DNA from: Terriglobia bacterium | Lineage (GTDB): Bacteria > Acidobacteriota > Terriglobia > Acidiferrales > UBA7541 | Direction: 5' to 3' | Assembly: GCA_020072785.1 (NCBI GenBank) | Contig: JAIQGG010000005.1 | Coordinates: forward strand, 62,001 to 126,000 | Length of the DNA: 64,000 nucleotides | Part shown: one piece after another, positions 19,516 through 33,000 of the stretch | Numbering within the stretch: position 1 is the stretch's first letter | How the letters are laid out: each line of letters opens with the position of its first letter | Program-made: the position numbers and the translations under genes | Notes under the pieces: generated by a model | Database searches by the model: none | What the model was told of the DNA's origin: nothing | What the model saw: only the letters and a program-made list of their open reading frames with translations

Positions 19516-20688
19516 TCAATCGAACGGCAGGCCCACGTAATTTTCGGCCAGGGCTGTGGCGGCGGCGCGGGAACCGGTGACGTAATCCAAATCCGCGAGG
19601 TGAATCCGGTTTATGAAATCACCCTCCGGGGAGCGATGCAGCGTAGTGGTCATCCACCAGGAGAAGCGCTGCGCCTTCCAAATGCGGCGCAGGCAGACTT
19701 CCGAGTAGCGGGCCAGCAGGTCCTGGCGGCCGTGTTTGTAGAAGGCCTCGAGCGCCTGGACGAGCACGCGGACGTCGGCCGCGGCCAGATTCAGGCCCTT
19801 CGCGCCGGTGGGGGGAACGATGTGCGCGGCGTCCCCGAGGAGGAAGAGCCGGCCATATTGCATGGGCTCCACGAGGAAGCTGCGCATGGCCGTAATTCCC
19901 TTCTGCAGGATGGGACCTTCCTTCAGCGTCCAATCGGCGTGAGTTGCGCAGCGCAACTGGAGTTCCTTCCAGATGCGCTCATCTGACCAGGCGTTGAGGT
20001 CTTCCTCGGGAGCGCATTGCAGATACAGGCGTGAAATCTGGGGGGAGCGCATGCTGAGAAGCGCGAAGCCGCGCTCGTGGCTGGCATAGACCAGTTCGTC
20101 GCAGGACGGGGCCACCTGCGCGAGAATCCCCAGCCAAGCGTACGGGTAGACGTTTTCGTGAGTCTTGAGCACCCCGGCGGGAATCGCGGGCCGGGAAACC
20201 CCGTGGAAGCCGTCGCAGCCGGCGATGAAATCGCATTCCAGCACCTCCGGGCACCCGTTGCGGGTGTAGCGGATGGAGGGCTGGGGCGAATCCAAACCGT
20301 GCACGCTGACGTCCTGCACTTCGAAGAAAATCTTCCCCCCGGCGTGGAGACGGGCGGCGATCAGGTCCTTCACGATATCGTGCTGGGAGTAAACGGTGAT
20401 GGTCTTCCCGCCGGTGAGCTCCACGAAGTTGATGCGGTGGTCGCGCCCCCGAAAGCGCAGATAGATCCCGGCGTGGACCAGGCCTTCGCGTTTCATGCGC
20501 TCGCCGGCACCTAAGTGCACCAGCAAATCAGCGACGTCATGTTCGAGGACGCCGGCGCGGATGCGGTTCTCGCAATAGTCGCGGCCGCGATTTTCGAGAA
20601 TGACGGATTCGATGCCTTGGAGATGGAGCCATTGCGACAGCAGCAGCCCCGAAGGGCCCGCTCCGATGATTCCGACTTGGGTACGCAT
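19516..20688 (-). CDS. pobA: 4-Hydroxybenzoate 3-monooxygenase
   Basis: FAD-dependent aromatic hydroxylase converting 4-hydroxybenzoate to protocatechuate with O2 and NAD(P)H. The 390-residue protein has the N-terminal dinucleotide fold '[17 protein letters not shown]', the DG-type motif '[15 protein letters not shown]', and the FAD ribityl motif '[22 protein letters not shown]'. Overall length and the '[13 protein letters not shown]' segment match PobA rather than other flavin hydroxylases. AAGGA precedes the ATG. It is the last gene of the ketone-degradation operon, and its product is the substrate of PcaHG encoded at 48.6-49.8 kb, which ties the two clusters together. Confidence 0.95.
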
Positions 20689-20749
20689 ATGCGCTGTTCC
20701 TTTATGGGTTCCGTTTGCAGGCGAGTCTTGCGGCTGGTGCGGCCCGTTT

Positions 20750-21196
20750 TCACTTCCGGCCGGTATGAGGCTTGCCTGAGAATTTTTCCTTTACTTCCTG
20801 CGGAATGACTTGCGCCTTGAAGCGCACCGGGCCCTCCGCCGATTCCGCGGTGCGCGCGACCCACACGCGCTTTTCGAAGAGTTCGACGGCCAAAACGCCG
20901 TCCTTGAAAAGCTTGTGATGAACGGAGAAGCTACTGCGACCCCATTCCGCGACACAGGACTCGACAAGGACGGTATCGCCGAATTGCGAGGGCAGCAGGA
21001 AGCGCGCGCGGGATTCGACCATGGGGATGCCGGCAATGCCGTAGGTCTTGACCATCTGCGCTTTGTGCAGGCCGGCGCGAGCAAACAAGGCATTGGTGCA
21101 GGCATCCCCATATTCCAGATAGCGGGGGAAATAGACGATGCCTCCGGGATCGCAATCGCCAAACTCGATATAGATCTCCTTGCGGTTGATCAGCAT
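20750..21196 (-). CDS. 4-Hydroxybenzoyl-CoA thioesterase-like hotdog protein
   Basis: Hotdog-fold acyl-CoA thioesterase of 148 residues. The N-terminal '[19 protein letters not shown]' carries the catalytic Asp16 in the arrangement seen in the Pseudomonas-type 4-hydroxybenzoyl-CoA thioesterase (FGDCDPAGI). Neighbours are a thiolase upstream (9 bases) and pobA downstream (61 bases). In that setting it would release 4-hydroxybenzoate from 4-hydroxybenzoyl-CoA. YbgC/FcbC-like proteins act on other acyl-CoAs too, so substrate is set by context rather than by sequence alone. Confidence 0.85.
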
Positions 21197-21205
21197 GGAA
21201 TTCTC

Positions 21206-30866: not shown

Positions 30867-30887
30867 GGATGGGCCTCGACTTTTCTC

Positions 30888-32219
30888 TTACTTCTCGTAG
30901 AGCTTCTTGATCAGCTGGCCTTTCATCTCAAACCGGGGCAGCGTCCCCGGGGACACAAGCTGCACGGCCGCGGAAACGGAGAGCACGGCCTTGATCTTTT
31001 CCTCGATTTTCTTCTGCAGCGCGGGCAGGTCCTGCGTGCCACTCCCATATTCCGCCGCCACCTTCAACGGCGGCTTCACGCCCGGCCCGGGTTCATCCAG
31101 CAGGATCTGCACTTCTCCCGTGGTCTGCGGATAGAAGCTGGAGACGACATCGCGCACCGCCGAGGGGAAGATATTGACGCCCAGAACGATGAGCATATCG
31201 TCGGTGCGGCCGATGCAGCGCATCTTAAATCCGGTTCGTCCGCACTTGCAGGAGGTAGCCAGAATGGAGACACGGTCCCGCGTGCGGAACCTCAGCAGGG
31301 GAACGCATTCGCGATCCAGGCTGGTGTAGACAAGCTCTCCGGAAACCCCGGTTTCGATGGGCAGCACTTCCCCGCTCTCAGGGTCGATGATCTCGATGTA
31401 CACGTACTCGTACCCGTTGTAGTGCATGCCGGACTGCTCCCGGCATTCGGCGAAGATGATGGGGGCCATATCGGCGTTGCCCAGGCCTTCGGTCACGCGC
31501 GCGCCCCATTCTTCGGTCATCTTGGCACGAACCGAAGGGATGCCGGCGCCGGGCTCCGCGCCGCAGACCAGCTTGGCGATGGCCAGTTCCCGCGGATCCA
31601 TCTTGGCCTCGCGGCGCACGTAATCGGCCAGGTAGATGGCATAGGACGGCGTGCAATGGATGGCGTTGGCGCGCAGCGCTTTCGCGTATAACACGACCTT
31701 TTCGGAGGCGCCGGTGCCCACGGGAACGAAGGCCGCGCCGATCATCTCCATGGCGTCCTTCGAGGGCAAGCCGCCGGCGAACATCGTCAGGCCCGCAGCG
31801 TGAATCACGATGTCAGAAGGCCGGATGCCCTGGGCGTAAAACGACCGCGCGGTGACATGCGTCCAGACCTGGGCGTCCCTGCGGGTGACGCCGACAAAGC
31901 TGGGGCGTCCCGTGGTGCCGGTGGAGGCGTGCAGGCGGATGACATCCGCCATGTCCGCGGCCATGTGGCTCCCCAGCGGCGGGCAGGCGGCCTGGCTTTC
32001 GCGCAACTCTTCCTTAGTGGTGAAAGGAAAGCGCGCCAGATCCCCGAGGGTGCGAAAGTCCTCGCGGCGAATCCGGGCGGCGGCGAATTTGTCGCGGTAA
32101 AAGGGCGACCGGGCATACAGATAGTCGAGTTGCTTGGCGAGTTTGATCTCCTGCAGGAGGCGCAAGGTTGCAGGGGTCATCGTTTCGATTTCCAGATCGA
32201 GATATTCGTCTGTTCTCAT
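30888..32219 (-). CDS. PaaK-like arylacyl-CoA ligase
   Basis: AMP-forming CoA ligase of the phenylacetate-CoA ligase family, 443 residues from ATG 32219. Motifs include the phosphate loop 'HASTGTTGRPSFVGVT', 'EGLGNADMAPIIFAECRE', 'YTSLDRECVPLLRFRTRDRV' and a zinc-ribbon-like 'CKCGRTGFKMRCIGRTDDML' before the mobile C-terminal domain ending 'KGQLIKKLYEK'. In this operon it would activate the beta-keto acid made by the carboxylase, the counterpart of benzoylacetate-CoA ligase. An upstream ATG at 32255 would add 12 residues; neither start has a strong ribosome binding site. Confidence 0.88.
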   Translation of the reverse strand: MRTDEYLDLEIETMTPATLRLLQEIKLAKQLDYLYARSPFYRDKFAAARIRREDFRTLGDLARFPFTTKEELRESQAACPPLGSHMAADMADVIRLHASTGTTGRPSFVGVTRRDAQVWTHVTARSFYAQGIRPSDIVIHAAGLTMFAGGLPSKDAMEMIGAAFVPVGTGASEKVVLYAKALRANAIHCTPSYAIYLADYVRREAKMDPRELAIAKLVCGAEPGAGIPSVRAKMTEEWGARVTEGLGNADMAPIIFAECREQSGMHYNGYEYVYIEIIDPESGEVLPIETGVSGELVYTSLDRECVPLLRFRTRDRVSILATSCKCGRTGFKMRCIGRTDDMLIVLGVNIFPSAVRDVVSSFYPQTTGEVQILLDEPGPGVKPPLKVAAEYGSGTQDLPALQKKIEEKIKAVLSVSAAVQLVSPGTLPRFEMKGQLIKKLYEK

Positions 32220-32274
32220 CGTGTGCACCGTGCCCTGCGCGCTTCCGTTCTGCATCCGAAGCGGGGCCTTCCGG

Positions 32275-33000
32275 CTAATCCCTTCCAGCCTCCAGAATCT
32301 TTTCCGCCAGGCCCTGCGGATTCGTGAACATCACTTCGTGGCTTCCGGCCATTTGCACGAGGCGGCAGAGGCCCAGGCGGCCGGACATCCGCGGATGCCA
32401 TCCCCATTCGCCGGGGGGCAGGGCGATGTCTTCCGTGCAATTGAGGAAACTTCTGGGAATCTCCAGGGAGTAGAACTTCTTCAAGTCGAGTTTGTCCGCG
32501 AAAGGCTGAAAGGGCTCGGGAGAGAGCCTCGCGTAGGCCGCTTTCGCCAGCCCCAGATCGGCGTCATTGATGAAGGCCTCGCGCCAGACGGGAAACGGCG
32601 GCATCACCGTGTTGTCCCCGGATTGCTTTGCCAACCGGGAAAACAAAGCGACGTATTCCGGGGGGATTTCGTCCAGCAGGCTCAGGCCATCGCGGATGAC
32701 GAAAGCGTTTTGATAGACCAGCCGACGGATGCTGCCGGGAATCGCTTCGGCGGCCTTGGAAATGAGCGTGCCGCCAAAGCTGTGGCCCACGAGGATAATA
32801 TCGGAGAGAGAAATTCCGGTGATGAACTCTACCAGCGAGCGCACGCAATCCGCGTGGGAGACATTCTTGCGGGCGCCTTTGCCGTGACCCGCCACGGTAG
32901 GGGCGAATACCTTGTGGCCCTTGCTTTCCAGATGCCGAACGACCGCGTCCCAAGCCGATCCGTCATGCCAGGAGCCATGCACTAAGACGAAGACCGCCAT
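32275..33000 (-). CDS. Alpha/beta hydrolase (esterase/EstC-like)
   Basis: A 241-residue serine hydrolase. The nucleophile elbow is 'LVGHSFGG' (Ser74), the oxyanion region 'LVHGSWHDGSAWD' is at the N-terminus and the catalytic His is in 'GSHEVMFTNPQ' near the C-terminus. The layout resembles plant-type methylesterases/hydroxynitrile lyases and bacterial EstC. It is the first gene of the operon and could cleave an ester of the phenolic ketone or a diketone; the actual substrate is unknown. Confidence 0.85.
   Translation of the reverse strand: MAVFVLVHGSWHDGSAWDAVVRHLESKGHKVFAPTVAGHGKGARKNVSHADCVRSLVEFITGISLSDIILVGHSFGGTLISKAAEAIPGSIRRLVYQNAFVIRDGLSLLDEIPPEYVALFSRLAKQSGDNTVMPPFPVWREAFINDADLGLAKAAYARLSPEPFQPFADKLDLKKFYSLEIPRSFLNCTEDIALPPGEWGWHPRMSGRLGLCRLVQMAGSHEVMFTNPQGLAEKILEAGRD

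Follow-up and report, generated by a model that had tools for sequence, protein, structure and literature searches.

The locus and its genes

The window analysed here is a 64,000-nucleotide stretch of contig JAIQGG010000005.1 from the 3.7 Mb genome of a soil Terriglobia bacterium (phylum Acidobacteriota; assembly GCA_020072785.1), and our subject is a cluster of eleven minus-strand genes within it (positions 19516-33000) that encodes an acetophenone carboxylase (Apc)-type enzyme alongside enzymes of aromatic catabolism. In the direction of transcription (33000->19516) the genes specify an alpha/beta hydrolase, a PaaK-like coenzyme A (CoA) ligase, a RutB-like hydrolase, ApcA, ApcB, ApcC, ApcD, ApcE, a thiolase, a hotdog thioesterase and PobA; they are tightly packed, with intergenic gaps of -4 to +61 bases, and all eleven show coding-type codon bias. 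The eleven codirectional genes reported in a preliminary description of this DNA are thereby confirmed, with every gene call right in position and strand. Synteny extends to eight further genomes of the family and to approximately 25 named loci from Acidobacteriota metagenome-assembled genomes (MAGs), the closest being that of Terriglobia bacterium SRVP_26 (ApcD 97% identical), so the cluster is not a chance arrangement.

Five consecutive genes encode the carboxylase, and their products were compared with hidden Markov models (HMMs) and solved structures. The GTG-initiated apcA (28181-30178) specifies the second HyuA-type subunit (alpha prime, bicarbonate-activating; NF042960, 631 bits against an equivalog cut-off of 1250; 5l9w_b, E 1.3e-158) and retains the equivalents of E248, D274 and K281. 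The small zinc subunit, ApcB (27747-28133, start ATG at 28133), matches Acetone_carb_G and NF042974 (184.5 bits, cut-off 250) and has four cysteines in CNRC and CPGC motifs. ApcC (25621-27750; NF042975, 1088 of 1500 bits; 5l9w_B, E 5.6e-298) is the HyuA-type alpha subunit, in which the ketone-phosphorylating site is predicted to lie, and ApcD (23534-25594; NF042976, 913 of 1500 bits; 5l9w_A, E 5.5e-261, 53% identity) is the HyuB-type beta subunit. ApcA, ApcC and ApcD align over their full length to subunits of the solved Aromatoleum acetophenone carboxylase, and their folds are clear from these close matches. The gene at 22499-23530 encodes a protein with a URO-D fold that resembles the epsilon subunit ApcE (NF042977, E 2e-21, 77 of 450 bits; 9fou ApcE, E 4.7e-13), and the carboxylase therefore has five subunits and not the four (two HyuA, HyuB and small zinc subunit) that had been correctly named before. 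Assignment of this fifth protein as a CoM (coenzyme M) or corrinoid methyltransferase was ruled out, since the H-x-C motif, a zinc-site motif of MtaA-type enzymes, is absent from it and from 14 relatives.

The remaining products include candidates for each step that would follow carboxylation. The PaaK-like aryl-acid CoA ligase (30888-32255; TIGR02155, 285.8 bits, cut-off 646, with HMM scores spanning 286-291 bits) is a proposed beta-keto acid ligase, and the thiolase (21206-22474, likely start ATG at 22450; TIGR01930, 372.8 bits) a proposed 4-hydroxybenzoylacetyl-CoA thiolase. The hotdog acyl-CoA thioesterase (20750-21196; Pfam 4HBT_2) is of the 4-hydroxybenzoyl-CoA thioesterase type, its Asp16, in the sequence EFGDCDP, corresponding to the catalytic Asp17 of 1BVQ (E 2.1e-18). 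The terminal gene, pobA (19516-20688), is the only copy in the genome; its product, a 4-hydroxybenzoate 3-monooxygenase, clears the subfamily model NF006091 (604.8 bits, cut-off 351), misses the equivalog TIGR02360 by 2.5 bits (536.2, cut-off 538.7) and keeps all six residues (Y201, S212, R214, Y222, P293 and Y385) that contact 4-hydroxybenzoate in PHBH. The substrate of PobA is 4-hydroxybenzoate, not benzoate. Located 15 kb from the operon on the plus strand, pcaHGBDC (48458-52412) encodes the protocatechuate branch of the beta-ketoadipate pathway, with the HMMs for PcaH, PcaG, PcaB, PcaD and PcaC all above cut-off, next to a minus-strand gene for a PcaR/PcaU/PobR-type regulator (47503-48372; TIGR02431, 294.6 bits, over cut-off). 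The HMMs and the 1BVQ match thus bear out the identities given earlier for the ligase, the thiolase, the FGDCDP thioesterase, PobA and the pca genes, as well as the proposed order of the chemistry. The scheme had been called complete, and it has no place for the conserved RutB-like isochorismatase-fold cysteine hydrolase (30186-30866; TIGR03614, 292.9 bits, cut-off 378; 8bkd, E 1.3e-68), whose catalytic D24, K133 and C166 are intact and whose gene lies 7 bases from apcA. The first gene of the operon (32275-33000; Abhydrolase_6, E 3e-19) encodes the alpha/beta hydrolase, which is also present in L034, L040 and L052.

Placement of the carboxylase and its ketone pocket

Features that distinguish Apc from acetone carboxylases and hydantoinases were taken from the Apc structure paper (PMC5214803). 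The operon has the Apc gene order apcABCD(E) (alpha prime, small zinc, alpha, beta and epsilon subunits), ApcC carries KERIDSRG, corresponding to the fingerprint R/KERiDsxG that is absent from ApcA, the small subunit has its four cysteines, and ASKHA ATP motifs occur in both HyuA-type subunits; the two-gene hydAB arrangement and the grouping with hydantoinases that mark hydantoinases and oxoprolinases were not found in it. In a maximum-likelihood tree ApcC fell within the Apc branch, which excluded acetone carboxylase, N-methylhydantoinase and oxoprolinase (support 100/96 and 100/98), and formed with other Acidobacteriota and one Myxococcota MAG a fully supported clade that is sister to the clade containing Aromatoleum ApcC; the outgroup branches are long and their order is unsure, while the Apc grouping is well supported. 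The tree and the gene content rule out membership among the hydantoinases, oxoprolinases or acetone carboxylases, and the tree did not return the grouping with N-methylhydantoinases or oxoprolinases that the preliminary description had named as grounds for refuting its reading. The search against Apc models that it proposed recognized all five families, ApcA to ApcE, and since every subunit scored below its NCBIfam equivalog cut-off, the carboxylase is not a strict Apc orthologue. On these comparisons it is firmly predicted to be an Apc-type enzyme in an acidobacterial clade of its own. The same genome contains a second, divergent Apc-like cluster (C2:548500-568499, our locus L032; ApcC 45%, ApcB 56% and ApcD 37% identity) preceded by a thiolase-like gene, and six HyuB homologues in all.

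Ketone binding has been tentatively assigned to Leu81, Phe281, Asn282, Pro285, Ile333, Gln344 and Thr345 of the alpha subunit (PMC5214803). The ApcC of the window keeps these predicted pocket residues except Gln344, which is replaced by Lys335, and has Ser in place of the neighbouring Gly283; the bicarbonate site of ApcA has the same residues as in Aromatoleum Apc. Both ApcC changes are fixed across the acidobacterial clade and common to the Myxococcota locus L053, and elsewhere Gln or Glu occupies the Gln344 position. Lys335 could pair with the phenolate of a 4-hydroxy ketone. Genomic context is stronger evidence on the substrate than this lysine.

A candidate route for 4-hydroxyaryl methyl ketones and its alternatives

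Close ApcD homologues occur in 15 of the 299 sampled genomes of the class, and the Apc operon is therefore a minority trait. The core conserved among relatives is rutB-apcABCDE, often accompanied by the thiolase and thioesterase genes. pobA adjoins the operon in five carrier loci from three genera; PobA is encoded by seven of nine carrier genomes versus 17 of 92 other relatives (Fisher p 0.0005, uncorrected for kinship), and PcaH is found on the contig of apcD, 8-23 kb away, in six of the nine. The ligase slot is filled either by the PaaK type or by a ligase that best matches the PRK12582 acyl-CoA synthetase model, a feruloyl-CoA-synthetase-like family acting on 4-hydroxyaryl acids. The far end of the operon also varies. 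In one relative, G016, PobA is missing and no thioesterase adjoins the operon; its neighbours there are 4-hydroxybenzoyl-CoA-reductase-like genes together with BoxC and BoxB, which would form a coherent alternative end to the pathway, although plain benzoyl-CoA from acetophenone fits G016 as well. Such swapped downstream ends are expected if the common product is 4-hydroxybenzoyl-CoA. In Paradesulfitobacterium ferrireducens, a member of the Peptococcaceae, an Apc operon is followed by gamma, alpha and beta genes that best match 4-hydroxybenzoyl-CoA reductase, below the equivalog cut-offs (L074:13315-17110), and an Apc-type route for 4-hydroxy ketones is possible there. Elsewhere in the genome of the window, a gene whose product scores above the cut-off for the 4-hydroxybenzoyl-CoA reductase alpha subunit lies in a cluster with an aldehyde dehydrogenase gene and several enoyl-CoA hydratase genes (C2:935485-945358; L112:486-10359).

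Gene content, family membership, active-site residues and synteny were read from the sequence, and from these we infer all substrates, flux and co-transcription. The natural substrate of the carboxylase would most likely be a 4-hydroxyaryl methyl ketone, with 4-hydroxyacetophenone as the leading candidate, and we consider it reasonably likely that the operon and the pca genes form an aerobic catabolic route that leads from this ketone through 4-hydroxybenzoate to protocatechuate. The eleven-gene set would probably add CO2 to a lignin-type aromatic ketone and prepare it for oxygen-dependent breakdown to ordinary metabolites. The ketone may first be formed from 1-(4-hydroxyphenyl)ethanol by a pyrroloquinoline quinone (PQQ) or GMC alcohol dehydrogenase. 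At the cost of two ATP, ApcABCDE would then form 4-hydroxybenzoylacetate, with the ketone phosphorylated as its enol by ApcC and bicarbonate activated by ApcA; the PaaK-like ligase would convert this product to its CoA thioester, which the thiolase would cleave to 4-hydroxybenzoyl-CoA and acetyl-CoA. The hotdog thioesterase would free 4-hydroxybenzoate, PobA would hydroxylate it to protocatechuate, and PcaHGBDC would open the ring.

Several observations weigh against this route. The carboxylase subunits all fall short of the strict Apc models, as detailed above, and the RutB-like gene is left unexplained. Two near-complete carriers are devoid of PobA, one of which (G009) retains the thioesterase, and in several loci the thiolase gene lies away from the operon. 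The assignment of the ketone pocket is tentative in the structure paper itself (PMC5214803), the replacement of Gln344 by Lys is a single clade-wide change and so possibly drift, and an attempt to tie Lys335 to the presence of pobA within the clade yielded no correlation, the lysine being fixed. Finally, BoxB scores over its cut-off in the genome of the window (contig C9), and benzoyl-CoA from plain acetophenone could therefore be used.

This last point bears on an alternative that we regard as unlikely, in which unsubstituted acetophenone is the substrate of the carboxylase, as it is in Aromatoleum, benzoyl-CoA enters the Box pathway, and PobA and the thioesterase serve other sources of 4-hydroxybenzoyl-CoA or 4-hydroxybenzoate. 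Most predicted ketone-pocket residues are indeed shared with the Aromatoleum enzyme, and one relative has BoxB and BoxC beside its operon, but BoxB in this genome sits on a contig other than that of the operon, the co-encoded thioesterase would waste benzoyl-CoA, benzoate 1,2-dioxygenase models found no match in the carriers, and operons in different genera repeatedly include the thioesterase and PobA. Less likely still, the substrate could be acetovanillone or a mixture of lignin hydroxyphenylethanones, PobA serving the 4-hydroxy member only and O-demethylation the methoxylated ones: two carriers without PobA have PcaH less than 20 kb from the operon, and MetE-core and methyltransferase-like genes lie near it in the window, L036, L037, L040, L045, L047 and L088, yet a known aromatic O-demethylase was not found among the scanned genes and the MetE-core genes may serve methionine metabolism alone. 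It appears improbable that there is no single pathway and that the genes represent just a ketone carboxylase module and a separate 4-hydroxybenzoate module placed in one aromatic-catabolism island; the island does hold many further aromatic genes that are conserved together, and some carriers have the operon without pobA, but the genes lie on one strand with gaps of at most 61 bases, and pobA and the thioesterase gene occupy the same operon end in several genera. An ATP-dependent hydrolase of the hydantoinase, lactamase or oxoprolinase type, whose N-carbamoyl product the RutB-like enzyme would cleave as in creatinine breakdown, is very improbable: its best argument is that amidohydrolase, with intact catalytic residues and adjoining apcA, and hydantoinases are a distant family of the carboxylase, but the tree keeps them and the oxoprolinases out of the clade, the alpha prime, small zinc and epsilon subunits present here are absent from hydantoinases, and the neighbouring genes belong to a CoA-thioester aromatic pathway.

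A role for the RutB-like hydrolase can be imagined by analogy. Ureidoacrylate is the compound cleaved by RutB, and the intermediate presumed for Apc is likewise a 3-substituted acrylate; we speculate that the hydrolase might resolve this intermediate or a by-product. The gene adjoins apcA in most acidobacterial loci. In Chloroflexi, Apc-like loci have a RutB-like gene after apcE (48-49% identity; L090:11914-12579, L091:8103-8768 and L092:13093-13749), so that genetic linkage of the hydrolase to Apc-type carboxylases is seen in both Acidobacteriota and Chloroflexi, which are distant from each other.

The surroundings of the operon are also shared with relatives. Upstream lie a minus-strand gene for a TonB-dependent outer-membrane receptor, probably for uptake (33205-36573; OMP_b-brl_4, 347 bits; conserved by synteny), and a divergent plus-strand gene for a PQQ alcohol dehydrogenase with a cytochrome domain (36843-39173; TIGR03075, 673.8 bits), both frequently conserved together with the operon; the dehydrogenase, also found near the Apc operon in genomes G009 and G051 and loci L045, L047 and L083, possibly oxidizes 1-arylethanols to the ketone. 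On the other side, a gene for a 715-residue protein with four cytochrome c domain matches lies beside the operon (15360-17507; conserved in L034). An island at 43318-55030, with an E1 dehydrogenase pair, a DUF5938 protein, HxlR and PcaR regulators, the pca genes, an aldehyde dehydrogenase and a MetE-like gene, is largely conserved with the Apc operon (L116, L117 and L118); most versions in relatives also include the PQQ dehydrogenase, and two relatives add an AMP-dependent ligase. Genes for an MTHFR-like protein, a MetE-core protein and a 483-residue protein with no Pfam match form a further conserved set (window 39178-43203, L040:1-3685, L088:2792-5232) that adjoins the Apc operon in some relatives and could serve the methyl groups of methoxylated aromatics or merely methionine metabolism. 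Near Apc operons with no adjacent pobA, a MetE-core protein is paired with an AprA-MT2-like methyltransferase (L036:13685-16354, L037:13685-16354, L045:16899-19556 and L047:15926-18583).

Comparison with known systems

The preliminary description had regarded Apc-type enzymes as belonging to anaerobic catabolism and the present locus as a different, oxygen-dependent route. The first premise fails, as Aromatoleum aromaticum employs Apc on acetophenone whether or not oxygen is present (PMC4729919) and an Apc locus of Methylibium lies near a Box-pathway gene. Rhodococcus rhodochrous GD02 degrades 4-hydroxyacetophenone and acetovanillone aerobically by carboxylation, through 4-hydroxybenzoate or vanillate and the beta-ketoadipate pathway (PMC9618137). 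Consequently, neither aerobic carboxylation of 4-hydroxyaryl ketones nor an aerobic Apc is new, and the claim of novelty was too large. The narrower novelty that remains is the coupling of a biotin-independent, Apc-type carboxylase to PobA and the beta-ketoadipate pathway: no description of an Apc-type enzyme that feeds 4-hydroxybenzoate, or that is combined with PobA and beta-ketoadipate genes, was found in the literature searched, which excluded most subscription papers. The earlier interpretation is thus partly supported.

Oxidative depolymerization of lignin yields hydroxyphenyl ketones among its major products, and growth on them is known for few bacteria. If the proposed route is correct, an abundant soil phylum would have a second route, with an unrelated carboxylase, by which carbon from such lignin products is recovered; engineering would gain an alternative to the Hpe pathway that is contained in one operon, and ATP-driven ketone activation could be studied in a second Apc subclass, a single Apc having been biochemically characterized at the time of the structure paper (PMC5214803). 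A bolder reading, which we consider less likely than not, is that Acidobacteriota evolved a second, biotin-independent route for the aerobic catabolism of lignin hydroxyphenyl ketones, in which a dedicated Apc subclass with a ketone-site lysine would carboxylate the free 4-hydroxy ketone with no phosphorylation of the phenol, the ends would be interchangeable (thioesterase and PobA, or 4-hydroxybenzoyl-CoA reductase and Box), and a RutB-like hydrolase would take part in the carboxylase cycle.

The Hpe pathway of R. rhodochrous GD02 and the Acv pathway of Sphingobium SYK-6 likewise carboxylate the methyl carbon of 4-hydroxyacetophenone and acetovanillone aerobically and employ a CoA ligase (PMC9618137, PMC13101465), but there the phenol is first phosphorylated by the kinase HpeHI, and the biotin-dependent HpeCBA and the phosphatase HpeD are used; none of these is present in the window operon, which would do the same job with an unrelated carboxylase. 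Hpe-type chemistry was rejected for the operon, phosphoenolpyruvate-type kinase and biotin carboxylase domains being absent from all eleven genes. The XccABC route for p-ethylphenol and 4-hydroxyacetophenone in A. aromaticum EbN1 carries out the same carboxylation, but is anaerobic, biotin-dependent and homologous to HpeCBA rather than Apc, as cited in PMC9618137. The apc1-4 cluster of Rhodococcus ruber Chol-4 (PMC6498646) is Apc-type and occurs in an aerobe; the parts of that report consulted describe no link to PobA or 4-hydroxyaryl ketones. Closest is ApcABCDE of A. aromaticum EbN1 with its benzoylacetate-CoA ligase (PDB 5L9W, 9FOU; PMC5214803, PMC4729919), which shares the five-subunit order, the ATP and substrate motifs, the CoA ligase and thiolytic cleavage. 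Compared with it, the window enzyme has an ApcD of 53% identity and a more divergent ApcA, belongs to a separate clade and carries Lys for Gln344, and its operon has a thioesterase, PobA and protocatechuate cleavage in place of benzoyl-CoA catabolism, together with the additional RutB-like gene.

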